Positions 3,852-41,102 of a DNA stretch of 41,102 bases are shown one piece after another; the first letter of the stretch is position 1; each line of letters begins with the position of its first letter. The notes under the pieces were generated by a model. That model was given only the letters and a program-made list of their open reading frames with translations. It did not search any database and was not told where the DNA came from. A program made the translations under genes and the position numbers. The stretch spans positions 1 to 41,102 of the forward strand of contig JALOTA010000009.1 of NCBI GenBank assembly GCA_025458125.1, in the 5' to 3' direction. The stretch is from Hyphomicrobium sp. GTDB taxonomy: Bacteria; Pseudomonadota; Alphaproteobacteria; Rhizobiales; Hyphomicrobiaceae.

Positions 3852-4915
3852 CCATCGAAACATTCGGGCGTGCCCCGAACGAGACAACGGCAGCCGCCGT
3901 CAGCGAAACGATCCTGAGCCCGCGCTTCTATACGACGGATTTCGATGAGCTCGACCGGATCGACGTGTCGGCACTCAGGAAAGAATGGGATGCGCTTCTG
4001 GCTGAAATGCGCGCGGATACCAATCGCGGTCATTTTCGGCGCACCGATGCCTGGGACGACTTCGATCTGAATTCTCTGCCAGAAGGTTTGCGCAAGGAAT
4101 TCATCGATTTTCTCGTCAGCTCCCTGACGTCGGAGTTTTCCGGCTGCGTTCTCTACGCAGAGATGAAGAAACGCGGCAAGAACAAGGATCTTGTCGAGCT
4201 TTTCAAGTTCATGAGCCGCGATGAGGCGCGTCACGCCGGGTTCATCAACGACACGTTGCGCGATTTCGACATCGGCATCGACCTGGGCTTCCTGACCAAG
4301 GCGAAGAAGTACACATTCTTCAAGCCGAAGTTCATTTTCTACGCGACGTATCTTTCCGAGAAGATCGGCTACGCGCGCTACATCACGATCTTCCGGCATC
4401 TGGAGCGCCATCCGGACCGCCGCTTCCACCCGATCTTCAAGTGGTTCGAAAAGTGGTGCAACGACGAGTTCCGTCACGGCGAAGCCTTCGCCCTGCTGAT
4501 GCGGGCCAATCCGCACCTGCTCGAAGGGGTCAACAAGTTCTGGGTTCGCTTCTTCGTCCTGGCGGTCTACGCCACGATGTATGTGCGCGACCATGCACGC
4601 CCTGAATTCCACAAGGCCATCGGGATCGATCCGACGGACTACGACATGCGGGTATTCCGGCTGACGTCGGAAATCTCGCGTCAGGTGTTCCCGGTCGAAC
4701 TCGACATCGACAATCCGAAGTTCCTGAAGCGGCTGGAGAAGCTGCGTGTGATCAATGACAAGATCAACGCGCTGGAAGGCCAGGACGGGATCGGCGCCCG
4801 CATGCGCCGGTATGGTCTGGGCGCTTCGGCGATGGCGACATTCGCGCGTCTCTATCTGATGAAGCCGCGCGAGAATCCGTTGCCGCAGCAGATCCGTCTC
4901 GAGCCGATCTGGTAA
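3848..4915 (+). CDS. acsF: Mg-protoporphyrin IX monomethyl ester oxidative cyclase (aerobic, di-iron)
   Basis: The 355-residue enzyme forms the isocyclic ring E of (bacterio)chlorophyll using O2. Di-iron ligand motifs are visible in order: SEFSGC (E96), DEARH (E126, H129), SEKIGYARY (E171) and NDEFRHGE (E207, H210). The length fits the AcsF family. A strong ribosome site (gggaggaag) precedes the ATG, which overlaps the preceding stop. The same reaction is done without O2 by bchE further downstream, so the organism can make pigment under both conditions. puhE follows after 28 bp. Confidence 0.96.
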
Positions 4916-4943: not shown

Positions 4944-5801
4944 TTGCTGGTCTACGGTCTGCCCGTTCTGTTTGTCCTCTTCACCTGGTGGTTCCTCACC
5001 GGTGCGGTGCTCTACGTCGTGGGGCTGCCGCGGACGACTGTACGCTGGACCATAGGGGCGGCAACTCTGGTCGCCATCGCGGCGCTCGCAGTGCTCTGGC
5101 AGACGTCCGGCGATACATCGCCGGGCGCTGCCTACGCCGCGTTCCTCGCGGCCCTGCTCGTGTGGGGCTGGCACGAGATCAGCTTTCTCACGGGTCTCGT
5201 GACCGGCCCCAGAACAACAGAAGCGCCGCGCATCTTGGGCGGCAGGGCGGGACTTTGGCCCGCGATCGAGACCTTGCTCTATCATGAGCTCGCCATTCTG
5301 GTGACCGCTCTTGGCCTGTTCGCCATGCTTTGGGGGTCTCCGAACGAAACCGGTCTGTGGGCCTTCGTCATTCTCTGGGTGATGCGGATCAGCGCCAAGC
5401 TCAACGTCTACCTCGGCGTTCCCAATCTCACGGAAGAGTTCCTGCCGCCGCACCTGACTTATCTCAAAACCTACTTCTGCAGACGCAGTATGAATCTGCT
5501 GTTTCCGGTTTCGGTAACACTCTCGACGGTCGGGACATTCATGCTGATCAGCGAGGCAGGGACGTTGACCGGCGTCTTCGACAAGACCGCTTTTACTTTT
5601 CTCGCAACGCTCATGGCTCTCGCGCTGATCGAACATTGGTTCCTGGTGGTGCCGCTGCCCTCGGCGGCGCTGTGGTCATGGGGGCTGTGGTCGCGTGAAG
5701 ACGAGAATGCCGGTGAGACGGCTGCGGCACCCGTTCTGGCGAGGGCGAGTGTGGCTATTCAACCCGATCCGCCGCAACGTGTCAGCGCAACCATCTTCTA
5801 A
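4944..5801 (+). CDS. puhE: Photosynthetic complex assembly protein PuhE
   Basis: The 285-residue integral membrane protein has about seven hydrophobic segments, with WWFLTGAVLYVVGLPR near the N-terminus and WHEISFLTGLVTGPR in the middle, as in PuhE (photosynthetic complex assembly protein 2). It starts with TTG behind a clear AGGAG. In Rhodobacter capsulatus PuhE affects pigment levels and the transition to phototrophic growth. The order acsF-puhE-hemA is typical of purple-bacterial clusters. The last 40 residues are hydrophilic. Confidence 0.92.
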   Translation: MLVYGLPVLFVLFTWWFLTGAVLYVVGLPRTTVRWTIGAATLVAIAALAVLWQTSGDTSPGAAYAAFLAALLVWGWHEISFLTGLVTGPRTTEAPRILGGRAGLWPAIETLLYHELAILVTALGLFAMLWGSPNETGLWAFVILWVMRISAKLNVYLGVPNLTEEFLPPHLTYLKTYFCRRSMNLLFPVSVTLSTVGTFMLISEAGTLTGVFDKTAFTFLATLMALALIEHWFLVVPLPSAALWSWGLWSREDENAGETAAAPVLARASVAIQPDPPQRVSATIF

Positions 5802-7278: not shown

Positions 7279-9069
7279 ATGCGCGTGCTCTTCATTCATC
7301 CCAACTATCACTCGGGCGGAGCCGAGATCGCGGGCAACTGGCCGCCGGCCTGGGTCGCCTATCTCGCCGGTGCGTTGAAGGCGAACGGAATCGACGACGT
7401 CCACTTCATCGACTCGATGACGCATGACATCGGGGATGACCGCCTGAGGGAAATGATCGAGGAGCTTCAGCCGGACATCGTTGGTGTCACGGCTATTACG
7501 CCCTCGATCTACAAGGCCGAGAATGTTCTCAAGATGGCCAAGGATGTCTGCCCGCGCGCGGTTACCGTGCTCGGCGGCATTCATGGTACCTTCATGTACC
7601 GGCAGGTTCTGTCCGAGGCTCCCTACATCGACGCGATCGTGCGCGGCGAAGGCGAGGAAATCATGGTCGAACTCGCCAAGGCAGTTGCCGAAGGCCGCTG
7701 GCCGGAAGCACGCGCATCGATCAAGGGGCTCGCCTACGTCGTCGACGGCAAGGTGATCGCAACGCCGGCCGCGCCGACTGTTAAGAATCTCGAGGCGATC
7801 AAGGCCGACTGGAGCATCCTCGACTGGCCGAAATACCAGTACATTCCTCTCGGGGTTCGCGTGGCCATTCCCAACATGGCGCGTGGATGCCCGTTCACAT
7901 GCTCGTTCTGCTCGCAGTGGAAGTTCTGGCGCGACTATCGCATCCGCGACCCGAAAGCGGTCGTCGACGAGATCATCGAGTTGCGCGACAAGCATCAGGT
8001 AGGTTTTTTCATCCTGGCTGACGAAGAGCCGACGATCAATCGCAAGAAGTTCGTTGCGTTTTGCGAGGAGCTGATCAAGCGCGACGTCGGTCTTCTGTGG
8101 GGCATCAATACGCGCGTCACCGATATCCTGCGCGATGAAAAGCTCTTGCCGTTGTATCGCAAGGCGGGCCTCATCCACGTTTCGCTCGGTACCGAGGCAG
8201 CCGCGCAGCTCAAACTCGATCTCTTCAACAAGGAAACCACGGTCGCGCAGAACAAGAAGGCCGTTCAGCTTCTTCGTGACGCTGGAATCGTGGTCGAGGC
8301 CCAATTTATCGTGGGCCTTGAAAACGAAACCGCGGAGACACTCGAAGAGACTTATCGCATGGCCTGCGACTGGAAGCCGGATCTTGCCAACTGGTCGATG
8401 TACACGCCATGGCCGTTTTCCGATCTCTTCAAGGAACTCGGCGACAAGGTGGAGGTGTTCGACTACGAGAAGTACAATTTCGTGACGCCCATCATGAAGC
8501 CGGACTCGATGGACCGGGCGGAACTTCTCGACCGCGTGATGAACAACTACCGCCGCTTCTATATGAAGAAGGCGCTGTTTTCTTATCCCTTCGCAGGGAC
8601 CGGCGATCGCCGCAAGTATCTCTGGGGATGCCTGAAAGCCTTCCTCAAGGCCGGTTTCGAGCGCAAGTTCTACGATCTCGGTAAGGTGGACTACTGGGGC
8701 CCGCAGTCCAAGAAGAAGGTCCATTTCAATTTCGATACCACTCGCCAGCGTGCCAATGACGAGGATGTCGAGTGGCAGGTGACGCACAATCGCAAGACCA
8801 ACACCATGCACGAGGCCGCCCTGGCGATGGCGTGCGGCGGCGGCAAGGAGCAAATGGACGACGACGGCGTGCCACTGATGGGCGCGGCAATGCACGGCTC
8901 CAAGCAGCAGATGGCTGACCACGTGCATGAGGCGGGCGCGTGCGGCTGCGGGTCGGGATGCGACTGCGAAGATGGGAAAGCGAAGTCTGGTCCGCCGAAG
9001 ACCACCTTCACTGTCGGGGGCGCAAAGCCTCAGCCCATCAAGGTGACGCATGAAAGCGCTGGTGTTTGA
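7279..9069 (+). CDS. bchE: Mg-protoporphyrin IX monomethyl ester anaerobic (oxygen-independent) cyclase
   Basis: The 596-residue radical-SAM enzyme forms ring E using water as the oxygen donor. The N-terminus ([23 protein letters not shown]) begins a B12-binding-type domain. The radical-SAM cluster motif is CPFTCSFC (C204, C208, C211), followed by [14 protein letters not shown] prefer the ATG at 7279 over the track start 21 bp upstream because it has a good ribosome site (gcggagg). The last 80 residues form an unusual Cys/His-rich tail containing [15 protein letters not shown], beyond the radical-SAM core. The end overlaps bchJ by 20 bp. A preceding FNR site indicates anaerobic expression, complementing aerobic AcsF. 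Confidence 0.95.
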
Positions 9070-11881: not shown

Positions 11882-12702
11882 TTCTGCTCCGAAGGGACTA
11901 GCGTCGCCGCGGCGCCGGGCGACGGCGTCACCAGGTCCGCGGGCGGTTCGGGTTTCGAGAAGATCTTGAGGCCACGCATGTAGAGCCGCGCCGCGTGATA
12001 GTGAATGAGCAGCAAGACCTGCAGTGTCGGGAAGGGGTGACGCAGGAAGCTTTTCAGCATCGCCCGCGAGGACAGTGTCGAAAGGCGGCCCGCGATGGTG
12101 GCTGAGAGGACGCGGGCGTCATCGCGGTAGAGATCGACGCGAATGGCGACGCGCTCTGGCTTCTCGATGAAGCGGAACCTGTATTGCCCGTCGGTCGGCA
12201 GGAACGGCGAGACGTGAAAGACCTTTTCGGCGGCGATTTCTTCATCGGCTGCGATCGGTACGCCGCCGGGCTTGCGGCAGAGATAGCAGTGGCGCTCGCC
12301 AAACGTGTTGTTGACCTCGGCGAGGACTGCGGCAAGCGCGCCGCTGCGATCGTGGCACAGCCAGAAGCTGACCGGGTTGAAGCCGAAGCCGAGCACCCGG
12401 GGCAGGGTGACAAGCGTCACTTCTCCGTCCGGCAACGTTTCGCCCGCGCTCTCAAAGGCAGACCGCAGCCATTCGGTCATGCCGGTGCTGCGATTGCCGT
12501 AGTCGCGGTCGTTGAGTGCGAACAGGCCCCAGCCGTTCCGGTTCAGGAACCGGCGCTTCAGAACGGGGAGCGACCCCACTGGAATGTGCAGGTAGGTGAG
12601 TTTGTGCGAGAGCGTGTAGGGTTTCGGTGAGAAGCGCGCATGTGTGATCCGCGCGTCGAGAAGACCGCGCGCGATCGGAATCTCACCTGCCGGTGCGCTC
12701 AC
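11878..12702 (-). CDS. DUF1365 family protein
   Basis: The product is 274 residues from a GTG that overlaps the stop of the amine oxidase gene (GTGA). The 291-residue track ORF starts inside that gene and is less likely. Features are LLDARITHARFSPKPYTLSHKLTYLHIPV at the N-terminus and LPRVLGFGFNPVSFWLCHDRSG...EVNNTFGERHCYLC, the conserved core of DUF1365. The biochemical role is unknown to me. The family nearly always travels with a FAD amine oxidase (COG2907 type) and Cfa, as here, which implies a shared lipid-modification pathway. Confidence 0.9.
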   Translation of the reverse strand: MSAPAGEIPIARGLLDARITHARFSPKPYTLSHKLTYLHIPVGSLPVLKRRFLNRNGWGLFALNDRDYGNRSTGMTEWLRSAFESAGETLPDGEVTLVTLPRVLGFGFNPVSFWLCHDRSGALAAVLAEVNNTFGERHCYLCRKPGGVPIAADEEIAAEKVFHVSPFLPTDGQYRFRFIEKPERVAIRVDLYRDDARVLSATIAGRLSTLSSRAMLKSFLRHPFPTLQVLLLIHYHAARLYMRGLKIFSKPEPPADLVTPSPGAAATLVPSEQK

Positions 12703-28276: not shown

Positions 28277-28404
28277 AGTGATCGGGCTGCGGGGTTCGTC
28301 AGGAACACATGAATCTCCAGGGCCTATAAGATCTGCCAGGGAGCTGTCCCTGTCCGGAGCCGTGGTTCCGGGCACACGGCGCCCCCAACGGCCACCGCGG
28401 CACT
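28277..28404 (+). ncRNA. ssrS: Probable 6S RNA (ssrS), approximate ends
   Basis: The 306-bp gap before the 5-formyl-THF cyclo-ligase gene, the place where 6S RNA lies in many proteobacteria, contains a rod-like candidate. The ends pair: AGTG-atcggg-CTGCGG with CCGCGG-CACT. Inside is ggttcgtcagg next to an open region, and the tip contains CAGGGA-gctg-TCCCTG and GCCGTG...CACGGC helices. This resembles alphaproteobacterial 6S RNAs as I remember them. 6S RNA binds the sigma-70 RNA polymerase holoenzyme. I could not run a covariance model, and the ends are estimates. Confidence 0.55.
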
Positions 28405-28445
28405 TATTTCCCCTCTCTCCGCCTTGCAAACCCGAGGACGTACCG

Positions 28446-33460: not shown

Positions 33461-34507
33461 ATGACCGACCGGATGATCTCGTCGACGAAACGCGAGGCCG
33501 ATGCCTTCGAGGCATCGATCCGTCCGCAGTCGCTCGATGAGTTCATCGGTCAGGAGCAGGCGCGCGCCAATCTCAAGGTGTTCATCCAGGCGGCGAAGGC
33601 GCGCGGCGATGCGCTCGATCACGTTCTGTTTGCCGGTCCGCCGGGTCTGGGCAAGACGACGCTCGCCCAGATCATGTCGAAGGAACTCGGGGTGGGTTTT
33701 CGCGCCACGTCGGGACCCGTGATCTCCAAAGCCGGCGACCTGGCCGCGCTGCTCACGAACCTCGAAGACCGCGATGTTCTGTTCATCGATGAGATCCATC
33801 GCCTCAATCCGGCGGTTGAGGAGATCCTCTATCCGGCGATGGAGGACTTCAAGCTGGACCTCATCATCGGCGAGGGGCCGGCGGCGCGGTCGGTGCAGAT
33901 CGATCTTGCCAAATTCACGCTGGTGGGCGCCACGACACGCGCCGGGCTTCTGACGACGCCGCTGCGGGACCGGTTCGGAATTCCGGTTCGGCTCAATTTC
34001 TACACGATCGAAGAACTGGAACTTGTGGTGACCCGAGGAGCGCGTGTCCTCGGGGCTCCCCTGCGGGCGGACGGAGCGCGAGAGATCGCGCGGCGGGCGC
34101 GTGGAACGCCGCGGATCGCCGGGCGTCTACTGCGGCGGGTCAGAGATTTCGCGGCGGTTGCGGGCGTCGAGACGATCGATGCCGGAATCGCCGACACGGC
34201 GCTCAGGGCGCTCGAAGTCGACAGCGAAGGGCTCGATGCCCTCGATCACCGGTATCTGATGTGCATCGCCAAGAATTACGAAGGTGGTCCCGTCGGCATC
34301 GAGACACTCGCGGCGGCGCTCTCCGAACCGCGTGATGCGCTAGAGGAAATCGTCGAGCCGTACCTGCTGCAGCAGGGTTTCGTTGGGCGGACGCCTCGCG
34401 GCCGGGTGATGACCTTGAAAGCGTGGCGTCACCTCGGTCTTTCCGGTCCGCCACGCAATGCCGCCCCGGATCTCTTCTCTGGCCCCGACGAGGCCGGCGA
34501 TCCGTGA
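33461..34507 (+). CDS. ruvB: Holliday junction DNA helicase RuvB
   Basis: The 348-residue AAA+ motor has the Walker A motif [13 protein letters not shown], Walker [12 protein letters not shown], sensor 1 [19 protein letters not shown] and the C-terminal winged-helix region ([18 protein letters not shown]). It drives branch migration with RuvA. The length is typical. It is separated from ruvA by three small genes. The stop overlaps the GTG of the metallophosphoesterase gene. Confidence 0.96.
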
Positions 34508-35415
34508 TCAGCCGCCGCACATTCCTGCGCGGCGCGGGCGTTGCGGTCGCGGCCGGCGCCGGCTTCGCCGGTTATGCATTCGGTTATGAGCCGCGCTACC
34601 GGCTGTCTGTCTCGAGGTATTCGATTTCGCCGCCGAATTGGCCGACCGGTTTGAAAGCGACGCTGGCACTCGTTGCAGACGTGCATGCGTGCGAACCTCT
34701 GATGGGGGCCGAGCGGATCGAAGGCATCGTTGAATTCACCAATGGGCTCGGCGCCGATGCTATCCTGATGCTTGGAGACTATGAGACGAACGCCCGGTTC
34801 ATCGACCGGCCGCTGATGCCTGACGAATGGGCGCCGATTCTTGCCAGGCTGAAGGCGCCGCTGGGCGTGCATGCCATTCTCGGGAACCACGACTACTGGG
34901 ACGATCCCGATGTTCAACGCAATCGTGGAGGGTCGCCGCGGGCACGCCGTGCCCTGGAACGAGCGGGCGTGCCGGTCTACGAAAACGACACCGTGCGGCT
35001 GACGAAGGACGGGCGGCCGTTCTGGCTTGCGGGCCTTGCGGACCAACTCGCATTCCCCGACACCGGCAACGACGCCAAAGGGAAGGGCGTGGGGCTCGAC
35101 GATCTGGACGGGACCCTGGCAAGGATTACGGACGATGCTCCCGTGATCCTGATGGCGCACGAACCGGACATTTTTCCCAAGGTGCCGGAGCGCGTGGCGC
35201 TGACCGTTTCAGGTCACACGCACGGCGGACAGGTGCGTCTCTTCGGCTGGTCCCCGATCGTTCCTTCCGTTTACGGCAACCGCTATGCCTACGGGCATGT
35301 CGTGGAGGGCTCCCGCCATCTCGTCGTGTCGGGCGGTCTGGGCTGTTCCATCACGCCGATACGCCTGGGCGTGCCTCCCGAAGTCGTTGTCGTTGAACTT
35401 GGAGCAGATGCTTGA
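34504..35415 (+). CDS. Tat-exported metallophosphoesterase (YaeI-like)
   Basis: The product is 303 residues from GTG 34504, overlapping the ruvB stop. The N-terminus [26 protein letters not shown] is a twin-arginine signal. Metal-binding motifs of the calcineurin-like fold follow: [33 protein letters not shown] and [12 protein letters not shown]. Members of this group act on lipid or nucleotide phosphates at the periplasmic face; the substrate here is unknown. ybgC follows directly (TGATG overlap). Confidence 0.9.
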
Positions 35416-36861: not shown

Positions 36862-37575
36862 ATGAACCCAGCGGACGTCGCCCAGGCGACCCTCCCGGCC
36901 GCAGCGCCGGGCGTTTCGTTTTATGAGCTATTCATTCATGCCTCACTCACCGTTCAGTTGGTGATGACGGGCCTGTTCATCGCCTCCATCTGGTCGTGGG
37001 CGATCATCGTGGAAAAGCTGTTCGCATTCCGCAAGGCGCGCATCGAAGCCGACCGGTTCGAGCAGACCTTCTGGTCCGGTCAATCTCTCGATGAACTCTA
37101 CAACCAGTTGTCGCGCGGACCGACCATTTCCATGGCGGCACTGTTCGTTGCGGCCATGCGCGAGTGGAAGCGGTCAGTGGAGGGCAACATTCGCGCCATG
37201 GGTGGCATTCAGATGCGCGTCGAGAAGGTGATGGATGTCACCATCAGCCGCGAGATGGAGCGGCTCGACCGGCGGCTTCTGTTTCTGGCGACCGTGGGAT
37301 CCACGGCGCCCTTCGTCGGACTCTTCGGCACCGTCTGGGGCATCATGGTGAGCTTCCAGGCCATAGCCATTTCGAAGAATACCAACCTCGCCGTCGTGGC
37401 GCCGGGCATCGCGGAAGCGCTCTTCGCAACGGCCCTGGGCCTGCTTGCGGCCATTCCGGCGGTCGTCTTCTACAACAAGTTCTCCGCCGACAGCGCCGCC
37501 ATCAGCCAACGGCTGGAAGCGTTCGCGGATGAATTCTCGGCGATCGTTTCGCGCCAGATCGACGTCAGGAGCTAG
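36862..37575 (+). CDS. tolQ: Tol-Pal system protein TolQ
   Basis: The 237-residue MotA/ExbB-family inner-membrane protein has three helices, around residues 27-47 (VQLVMTGLFIASIWSWAIIVEK), 140-165 (LATVGSTAPFVGLFGTVWGIM) and 175-200 (VVAPGIAEALFATALGLLAAIPAVVFY). With TolR it forms the proton-driven motor that energises TolA and helps outer-membrane constriction at division. tolR follows after 6 bp. Confidence 0.95.
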   Translation: MNPADVAQATLPAAAPGVSFYELFIHASLTVQLVMTGLFIASIWSWAIIVEKLFAFRKARIEADRFEQTFWSGQSLDELYNQLSRGPTISMAALFVAAMREWKRSVEGNIRAMGGIQMRVEKVMDVTISREMERLDRRLLFLATVGSTAPFVGLFGTVWGIMVSFQAIAISKNTNLAVVAPGIAEALFATALGLLAAIPAVVFYNKFSADSAAISQRLEAFADEFSAIVSRQIDVRS

Positions 37576-37581
37576 GCCGAG

Positions 37582-38034
37582 ATGGGCGCCAGTATCAAAA
37601 TGAACACCGGTGGCGGGGGCGGACGGCGCCGCCGACGCAGCCGCAAAGCCCCGATGAGTGAAATCAACATCACGCCGATGGTCGACGTGATGCTCGTGCT
37701 TCTCATCATCTTCATGGTGGCCGCGCCGATGCTCACCGTGGGCGTACCCATCGAACTGCCGCAGTCGCAGGGCAAACAGCTGGAAAGCTCGAAAGAGCCG
37801 CTGACGATTTCCGTCTCGGCCAGCGGCGAGACATTCATCGGCGAAACGAAGGTGCCGCTGAACGAGATCGCTGAAAAGCTCAAGGCCATCGCCAAGAACG
37901 GTGTCGACGAGCAGATCTACGTGCGGGGCGACAAGGGAATCGACTATGGCACCGTCATGAAGGTGATGGGCCGGATCAGCTCGGGCGGCTTCAAGAAAGT
38001 CTCACTCGTCACGGAAGTCGAAGACGGAGGTTAG
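37582..38034 (+). CDS. tolR: Tol-Pal system protein TolR
   Basis: The 150-residue ExbD/TolR protein has a Gly/Arg-rich N-terminus (NTGGGGGRRRRRSRKAPMSEINITPMVDVMLVLLIIFMVAAPML). The helix contains the proton-coupling Asp (MVDVMLVLL). A periplasmic domain follows (VDEQIYVRGDKGIDYGTVMKVMG). It is the partner of TolQ. Co-transcription with tolQ and tolA is expected from the spacing. Confidence 0.95.
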   Translation: MGASIKMNTGGGGGRRRRRSRKAPMSEINITPMVDVMLVLLIIFMVAAPMLTVGVPIELPQSQGKQLESSKEPLTISVSASGETFIGETKVPLNEIAEKLKAIAKNGVDEQIYVRGDKGIDYGTVMKVMGRISSGGFKKVSLVTEVEDGG

Positions 38035-38041
38035 AGCAGCG

Positions 38042-38137
38042 GTGGGCGCCGGGCTCTTCATATCGATCGTGATGCATGCGGCGCTGCTGGCGTGGTCGAT
38101 CATCTCGATCCAGCGAACGCCATCGCCGTCGCCATGA
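38042..38137 (+). pseudogene. Out-of-frame N-terminal membrane segment of tolA
   Basis: A GTG at 38042 opens a frame encoding MGAGLFISIVMHAALLAWSIISIQRTPSPSP before a TGA at 38135-38137. This is the cytoplasmic-start membrane helix (IxSIxxHAxLLxW) expected at the front of TolA, but it is in a different frame from the TolA body. A one-base deletion, or a sequencing error, around 38092-38134 would explain it. Confidence 0.75.
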
Positions 38138-39060
38138 TTACGCCGTCCGAATTCCTGCGCATGAAGCAGGGAAGCGAGACATCGAAGGAACTGGAAGCCA
38201 AGGCGAGCGAGAAGCCGGCTGATGTCCAGTCCGTGCTCGAAGCGGAAAAACCAAAGCCGGTTCTGGCGCCGACGCCGCCCGCGGAACCGGAGCCGGCGAA
38301 GCCCGATCCCGCGCCCGAGCCGCCGAAACCGGCCGAGGCCACGCCGCCTCCCGAACCTCCCAAACCCGATCCGATTGCCGAGAAGTTGGCCGAGGCTCCG
38401 CCGCCACCGCCGGGACCGACGCCCGATGAACTGAAAAAACAGGAGGAGGAGAAAAAGGCCGCCGAAGAAGCTCAGAAGAAGGCTGAGGAAGAAAAGAAGA
38501 AGGCCGAGGAAAAGAAAAAGGCGGAGCAGAAGAAAAAAGCCGAAGAGGCGAAAAAGAAGGCCGCCGAGGCCAAGCGCAAGAAGGAAGAAGACGAGAAGAA
38601 AAAGCAGGCCGCTGTTTCAGACCGGCTCGCGGCGCTTCTCGACAAGGATCCGACCAAGAAGGGTGCGCAGGCGACCGCGACCGAACCGACGAAGCCGACC
38701 GAGTACCGTGGGCCGACAGCGGGAACCGAGACGGGCAACGAAGCGGTTCTTTCGGTGCGCGAACAGGATCTTCTGCGTGGCATGCTGCGGACGCAGATCG
38801 CGCGCTGCTGGCGACTGCCGGGAGGCGGCGGTGGAGCGGAGACCCCGATCGTCACGCTGCGGTGGCGGATGCGTCCGGATGGGACGCTGGAGGCCGATCC
38901 TCGTGTCGAAAAGCCAGCTTCCGGCCCGCTGGCAGCTCTGGCCACCGAGTCGGCCATGCGCGCCGTAAAAGGTTGCCAACCCTATGATTTGCCGAAGGAC
39001 CTCTATGAAAGCGGCTGGCAGGAGATCATCTGGGAGTTCGATCCGAGCGAAATGCTGTAG
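38092..39060 (+). CDS. tolA: Tol-Pal system protein TolA (body; membrane anchor in another frame)
   Basis: The 322-residue ORF contains the TolA body: a Pro-rich stretch (about residues 55-115), a long Lys/Ala/Glu helix (KKQEEEKKAAEEAQKKAEEE..., about residues 117-183) and a C-terminal domain (VREQDLLRGMLRTQIARCWRLPGG...AVKGCQPYDLP...WEFDPSEML) that meets Pal and TolB. The first residues (VDHLDPANAIAVAMITPSEF) lack the essential membrane helix, which lies in the -1-related frame at 38042-38137. A single extra base restored near 38110 would join them. As written, the encoded protein would not be anchored. Confidence 0.88.
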   Translation: MVDHLDPANAIAVAMITPSEFLRMKQGSETSKELEAKASEKPADVQSVLEAEKPKPVLAPTPPAEPEPAKPDPAPEPPKPAEATPPPEPPKPDPIAEKLAEAPPPPPGPTPDELKKQEEEKKAAEEAQKKAEEEKKKAEEKKKAEQKKKAEEAKKKAAEAKRKKEEDEKKKQAAVSDRLAALLDKDPTKKGAQATATEPTKPTEYRGPTAGTETGNEAVLSVREQDLLRGMLRTQIARCWRLPGGGGGAETPIVTLRWRMRPDGTLEADPRVEKPASGPLAALATESAMRAVKGCQPYDLPKDLYESGWQEIIWEFDPSEML

Positions 39061-39166: not shown

Positions 39167-40543
39167 ATGTCGAACAGCATGATTTCCCTTTCGCCTACCT
39201 TCGCAGCGCCCACTCGATCACCGCGATGTGCCCGGCAGTCATCAAGTTGGATGGCCGGGGGCCTTGGTCTCGTTGTCGCGGCGATAAGCGCGCTTCCGGC
39301 TGCGGCGCAACTCACCGGGCGTCAATCGGAAGGGTCGCTGTCGCCCATTCCGATCGCCATTCCCGAGTTTGTCGGCGACGATCCGCGGCTGGCGACGGAG
39401 ATTTCCAACGTCGTGGCCAACGATCTGGAAAGTTCCGGCCTTTTCAAACCTTTGGATCGCGGTTCATTTCTTGAAGCGGTGCGTGACATCAATCAACCGC
39501 CGCGAATGGTCGACTGGCGCTCAATCGGCGCGGACGCGCTGGCGGTTGGGCGCGTAACCCGGGATGCCAGTGGCCGGCTGTCTTCGGAGTTCCGGCTGTG
39601 GGACGTCGCGACGGGCAAGCAGCTCGCCGGCCAGCGATTTGCGACGGCGGAGGCCAACTGGCGCCGCGTCGGGCACATCATCGCCGACCAGATCTACGAA
39701 CGTCTGACGGGTGAGAAGGGCTATTTCGACAGCCGTGTGGTCTTCATCGACGAGACCGGTCCCAAGGACAAGCGCGTCAAGCGGCTCGCCATTATGGATC
39801 AGGACGGCGCCAACGTCCGAATTCTCTCAAAAGGCGCGGAGATCGTTCTCACGCCGCGGTTTTCGCCGACCCGTAACGAAATCACGTTCATGTCCTACAC
39901 GCGCGACCAGCCGCGCGTGTTTTTGCTCAACCTGGAGACCATGCAACGCGAAGTCGTCGGGGACTTTCCCGGCATGACGTTCGCGCCACGTTTTTCCCCT
40001 GATGGCCAGCGGGTGATCTTCTCCGTGCAGTCGGAGGGTTCGAGTTCGATCTTCGAAATGGACCTGAGGACCCGCCAGACCCGGCGCGTCACCCAGACCG
40101 ACGCCATCGACACGGGGCCCTGCTATTCGCCAGATGGGCGGCAGATCGTGTTCGAGAGCGACCGGGACGGGACCCAGCAACTCTACCTAATGAACTCGGA
40201 CGGCTCGGGGGTTCGCCGGCTCAGCTACGGGGAGGGGCGTTACTCGACGCCGGTCTGGTCCCCGCGCGGCGACTATATTGCCTTTACAAGGCAGCTTGCG
40301 GGACGTTTCATCATCGGTGTCATGCGCCCCGACGGCTCGGGCGAACGGGTGCTGACCGACGGATTTCATAACGAAGGCCCGACGTGGTCCCCCAACGGGC
40401 GAGTCGTGATGTTCTTCCGGGAAGGCCAGGGACCGAACGGCGGACCGCGAATCTTTACGGTCGACATCACGGGCTACAACGAACGAGTCATTGCAACGCC
40501 ATCGTTCGCGTCTGATCCCGCCTGGTCGCCTCTCCTGAATTGA
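39167..40543 (+). CDS. tolB: Tol-Pal system beta-propeller protein TolB
   Basis: The 458-residue periplasmic protein has an N-terminal signal ([23 protein letters not shown], cleavage likely after AAA). A mixed N-terminal domain ([35 protein letters not shown]) and a six-bladed propeller with WD-like repeats follow ([67 protein letters not shown]). It binds Pal and TolA. pal usually follows directly but is not next here; small lipoprotein genes are. Confidence 0.96.
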
Positions 40544-40813: not shown

Positions 40814-40988
40814 ATGCAGGGTATCAAGGGGCTTATCGTTCTCTCCGCCGCCATCATGGCTGTTGCTGGGGCTTATCGTTCTCTCCGCCGCCATTGTGGC
40901 TGTTGCTCTTGGCGCTTGCCGTCGCGAAGAAGCGGCACCGATGAAGCTCGGTGCCGAGTTTCCGGCCGCCACGAATGTGGCTCGCTAA
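40814..40988 (+). pseudogene. Small lipoprotein gene disrupted by a 40-bp tandem duplication
   Basis: The ATG has a good ribosome site (acaggag) and begins MQGIKGLIVLSAAIMAVA. A 40-bp segment is then repeated, which shifts the frame. If one copy is removed the gene reads as a 44-residue lipoprotein, MQGIKGLIVLSAAIVAVALGACRREEAAPMKLGAEFPAATNVAR, with lipobox LGAC and a stop at 40986-40988. As written, translation from the ATG goes into an unrelated frame to 41032. A TTG inside the junction could start a shorter in-frame product but lacks a ribosome site. A close paralogue follows at 41030. Confidence 0.75.
40828..40907 (+). repeat. 40-bp tandem direct duplication
   Basis: Two adjacent 40-bp units (40828-40867 and 40868-40907) beginning ggggcttatcgttctctccg are identical except at two positions (catcatggc against cattgtggc). 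Forty is not a multiple of three, so the duplication breaks the lipoprotein frame. The two differences suggest it is not brand new, or that one copy was patched by the paralogue. Confidence 0.95.
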
Positions 40989-41029
40989 TCCCTCCCGGTT
41001 TTGTCTGGGACACTACAGGAGAAAGACTA

Positions 41030-41102
41030 TGAAGGGCGCTATCGTTCTCGCCGCCGCTATCGTGGCCGTTGCTCTCGGCGCTTGCCGCCGTGAAGAAGCT
41101 GC
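41030..41102 (+). CDS. Small lipoprotein, paralogue of the preceding gene (partial, runs off the window)
   Basis: From the ATG at 41030, behind acaggagaaag, the visible product is MKGAIVLAAAIVAVALGACRREEA, continuing past the window end. The lipobox is LGAC with cysteine at about residue 19. It is almost the same as the restored form of the preceding gene, including CRREEA, and the ribosome-site regions also match, so the pair arose by tandem gene duplication. The mature part would be very short if it resembles its neighbour (about 25 residues). Function unknown. Confidence 0.75.

Follow-up and report, generated by a model that had tools for sequence, protein, structure and literature searches.

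Why is tolA written in two reading frames in this Hyphomicrobium draft genome, and does the break lie in the organism or in its assembly? The window analysed here, 41,102 bp of DNA, is one whole contig (C173) of a draft Hyphomicrobium genome, recovered from a metagenome, that amounts to 2.92 Mb in 180 contigs and is 89.2% complete and 5.15% contaminated. Between 36.8 and 40.5 kb the window carries an ordinary tolQ-tolR-tolA-tolB cluster, with the split tolA sitting between tolR and tolB:

36862..37575, forward strand: tolQ, intact (TIGR02796, 282.6 bits)
37582..38034, forward strand: tolR, intact (TIGR02801, 134.3 bits)
38042..38137, forward strand: tolA anchor fragment, 31 codons (sequence; homology to residues 1-28 of congener TolA)
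38121..38122, forward strand: junction at which 28 bp found in all five congeners are absent (alignments)
38122..39060, forward strand: tolA body fragment, in the other frame and without a membrane anchor (TIGR02794, 67.7 bits; tblastn; sequence)
39167..40543, forward strand: tolB, intact (TIGR02800, 441.7 bits)

The anchor frame runs from a GTG at 38042, preceded by a GGAGG motif and located where the congeners also start (with GTG or TTG), to a TGA at 38135-38137. It encodes a single hydrophobic helix with a Ser-x3-His motif (SIVMH) that is kept in relatives. The anchor peptide quoted in the earlier note, which ended in ...SIQ, is real, but the fragment continues for seven further codons (RTPSPSP). 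Homology to the TolA body extends from 38122 to 39057, followed by the stop codon at 39058-39060, and the open reading frame that contains it, from a GTG at 38092, encodes 322 amino acids and scores above the cutoff of the TolA family model TIGR02794 (67.7 versus 59.45 bits). An ATG of the body frame at 38134-38136 overlaps the anchor stop as ATGA. When intact congener TolA is compared with the window by tblastn, residues 1-28 match in one frame and residues 37-353 in another, which bears out the proposal that anchor and body lie in different frames. The helix and its Ser/His motif, at 38042-38125, are therefore out of frame with the body here, while they are in frame in all five congeners.

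The earlier note had proposed aligning the locus with relatives. Five congeneric genomes (Hyphomicrobium MAGs) form our comparison set; the collections searched yielded no sister strain of this species. All five congeners have an intact tolA, with anchor and body in one open frame that includes the hydrophobic helix and the Ser-x3-His motif, and in DNA alignments each has 28 additional bases directly after position 38121, with both flanks well matched. The absence of these 28 bp is unique to one of the six genomes compared. The missing stretch encodes the linker that follows the anchor, about nine conserved residues (ELMRPEPEP in most congeners), and a 3-bp GCC match is present at the ends of the deletion. 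Across the family and the order, 29 further tolA loci were examined: 28 carry helix and body in one frame, and the remaining one starts at a contig edge. As a TolA of the Tol-Pal system (TIGR02794), the window gene shares with its Hyphomicrobium orthologues the tolQ-tolR-tolA-tolB order, the anchor helix with Ser-x3-His, a middle region rich in Pro, Lys, and Glu, and a conserved C-terminal domain. It differs from these orthologues in lacking 28 bp of the linker, which puts its anchor and body out of frame with each other.

These alignments bear directly on whether a point error in base calling, with one base lost, could have produced the split. Frame arithmetic permits such an error, and it had been suggested that one added base would join the two parts. 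That suggestion holds as arithmetic only: the real difference from the five congeners is 28 consecutive bases, absent between flanks that both align well. The loss of one base thus does not account for the split, and we regard a point error as extremely improbable.

A second possibility is that the split is functional, with programmed frameshifting or translational coupling at the ATGA giving a working TolA that is either fused or in two parts. The overlap of the anchor stop and the body ATG as ATGA is in keeping with this idea, and the motif is known to couple translation. However, inspection by eye of the anchor frame and the overlap revealed no slippery heptamer of the form X-XXY-YYZ, as the earlier note had also observed, and there is no unusual or stable RNA structure (fold z-score of 0.05). 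Programmed frameshifting was rejected on these grounds, and also because a slip would not restore the approximately nine missing linker residues. Coupling fares no better, as the linker is deleted and a body begun at the ATGA would have no export signal. The arrangement occurs in none of the five congeners, and a functional split has next to no probability.

More serious is the possibility that the 28-bp deletion is real, and that it represents a recent tolA null or a polymorphic allele in the sampled population. In TolA, the anchor helix binds TolQ through its Ser/His motif and the periplasmic body binds TolB (PMC7391070). Judged from its sequence, tolA as written would be a null allele, giving a short membrane peptide of 31 residues and perhaps a soluble cytoplasmic body by restart at the ATGA, with loss of TolA function. 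The deposited sequence does read this way, natural deletions of intermediate size with short matches at their ends do occur, and the 3-bp GCC fits a microhomology deletion. A search of the genome for another, unbroken tolA gave none; the only other match, on contig C82, was rejected as a second tolA, being a TonB_C protein. Against a real deletion, Tol-Pal is essential in the alphaproteobacterium Caulobacter and is essential for cell division in Sinorhizobium meliloti (PMC7391070; PMC7327166). Furthermore, the tolA body has a pN/pS of 0.092 versus the congeners, compared with 0.094 among the congeners themselves, indicating no relaxed constraint, although a recent loss would escape such a test and synonymous sites are near saturation. 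The tolB row of the pN/pS table appears misaligned and was disregarded.

The condition of other genes in the same assembly also argues against a real deletion. On contig C20 (G000:C20), the cysS gene for cysteinyl-tRNA synthetase contains a perfect 10-bp tandem duplication at 8516-8536, with its halves in different frames, and this broken gene is the only cysS found in the genome. Cysteinyl-tRNA synthetase is indispensable to cells, and the cysS break therefore almost certainly lies in the assembly and not in the living cell. The same contig has a 52-bp gap at 4198 in a gene for a MeaB-type GTPase and a 44-bp gap at 5005 in a pentapeptide-repeat gene, so that all three lesions fall within about 5 kb. 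Contig C6 (G000:C6) has a 58-bp gap at 2846 in a gene with a match to the UvrB C-terminal region. A six-frame scan for splits and stops in all open reading frames of the window proved too noisy, with many antisense frames, and was narrowed to conserved genes; the trusted lesions that it gave in protein-coding genes of the window were tolA and a small gene after tolB. Together with an RNA gene, the additional lesions in the window are:

28281..28407, forward strand: 6S RNA gene, lacking at 28385 a conserved stretch of 37 bp that three congeners have (RF00013; alignment)
40828..40908, forward strand: small lipoprotein-like gene broken by a 40-bp tandem duplication (alignments)

The 6S RNA of the window scores 26.6 bits against Rfam RF00013, below the gathering threshold of 46.4, whereas the three congeners score 56.6-66.1 bits, and a search of the genome for 6S RNA returned nothing at E <= 0.001. 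The 40-bp tandem duplication is imperfect, with two bases differing between its copies, and the gene that it breaks is intact in congeners.

We also compared the rate of such lesions between genomes, counting in sampled stretches of each the gaps whose length was 10 bp or more and not a multiple of three, and whose flanks matched well. With congener G002 as the reference, this genome had 8 gaps in 127 kb, whereas four congeners together had 2 in 331 kb (p about 0.001), corresponding to 0.63 gaps per 10 kb here and 0.06 in the four congeners pooled; outside the window, this genome still had 4 in 87 kb (p = 0.02). When G004 served as the reference, the contrast was weaker, at 9 in 123 kb versus 10 in 352 kb (p = 0.036, and p = 0.14 outside the window), because G003 in particular also has gaps of this kind. 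The gap rates are thus supportive of an artefact but carry less weight than the break in the sole cysS.

Overall, we consider it likely, with a probability of roughly 0.8, that the split tolA is an assembly artefact of the draft genome. This reading is favoured because the only cysS is broken in the same assembly and the tolA body shows no sign of relaxed selection, with the same class of lesion present in other conserved or indispensable loci, including cysS and the 6S RNA gene. The organism's real tolA would be one continuous gene like those of its congeners, and the 28 bp of linker after the anchor would have dropped out as the contig was assembled or joined. The occurrence of several indels of intermediate size in one assembly points to a fault of assembly or joining rather than of base calling, and we infer that assembly or gap closing was the cause. 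The earlier note had favoured a sequencing error or a null allele over frameshifting; that preference stands, but the lesion is a 28-bp deletion among several mid-size indels and not a point error. A real deletion, the main rival, is unlikely. It is more doubtful still that a living Hyphomicrobium lineage lacks a continuous tolA and tolerates the loss of membrane-anchored TolA, which would make it a naturally occurring tolA null in a group for which Tol-Pal is regarded as essential; the evidence argues against it.

It is documented that assembly errors give rise to spurious pseudogenes and inflate pseudogene counts (Cooley and Wright, 2024, PMC11017572). As in the cases described there, conserved genes, including an indispensable one, have disrupted reading frames in a fragmented draft. 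In contrast to that study, the lesions here are gaps and tandem duplications of 10-58 bp, judged against congeners. Several conserved genes that are broken in this draft, among them tolA, cysS, and 6S RNA, should not be taken for gene loss.

Two smaller observations were made along the way. The region 3′ of tolB, at 40814-41102, holds a very short lipoprotein-like gene (...VALGACRREEAAPMKLG...) that is strongly conserved and occurs there as two tandem copies; the first is the copy broken by the 40-bp duplication, and the contig ends within the second. In addition, congener G004 has a frameshift on its contig C3, at about 12400-12412, in the orthologue of the window gene at 34423-35415, relative to five other genomes, and this is probably a similar draft error.
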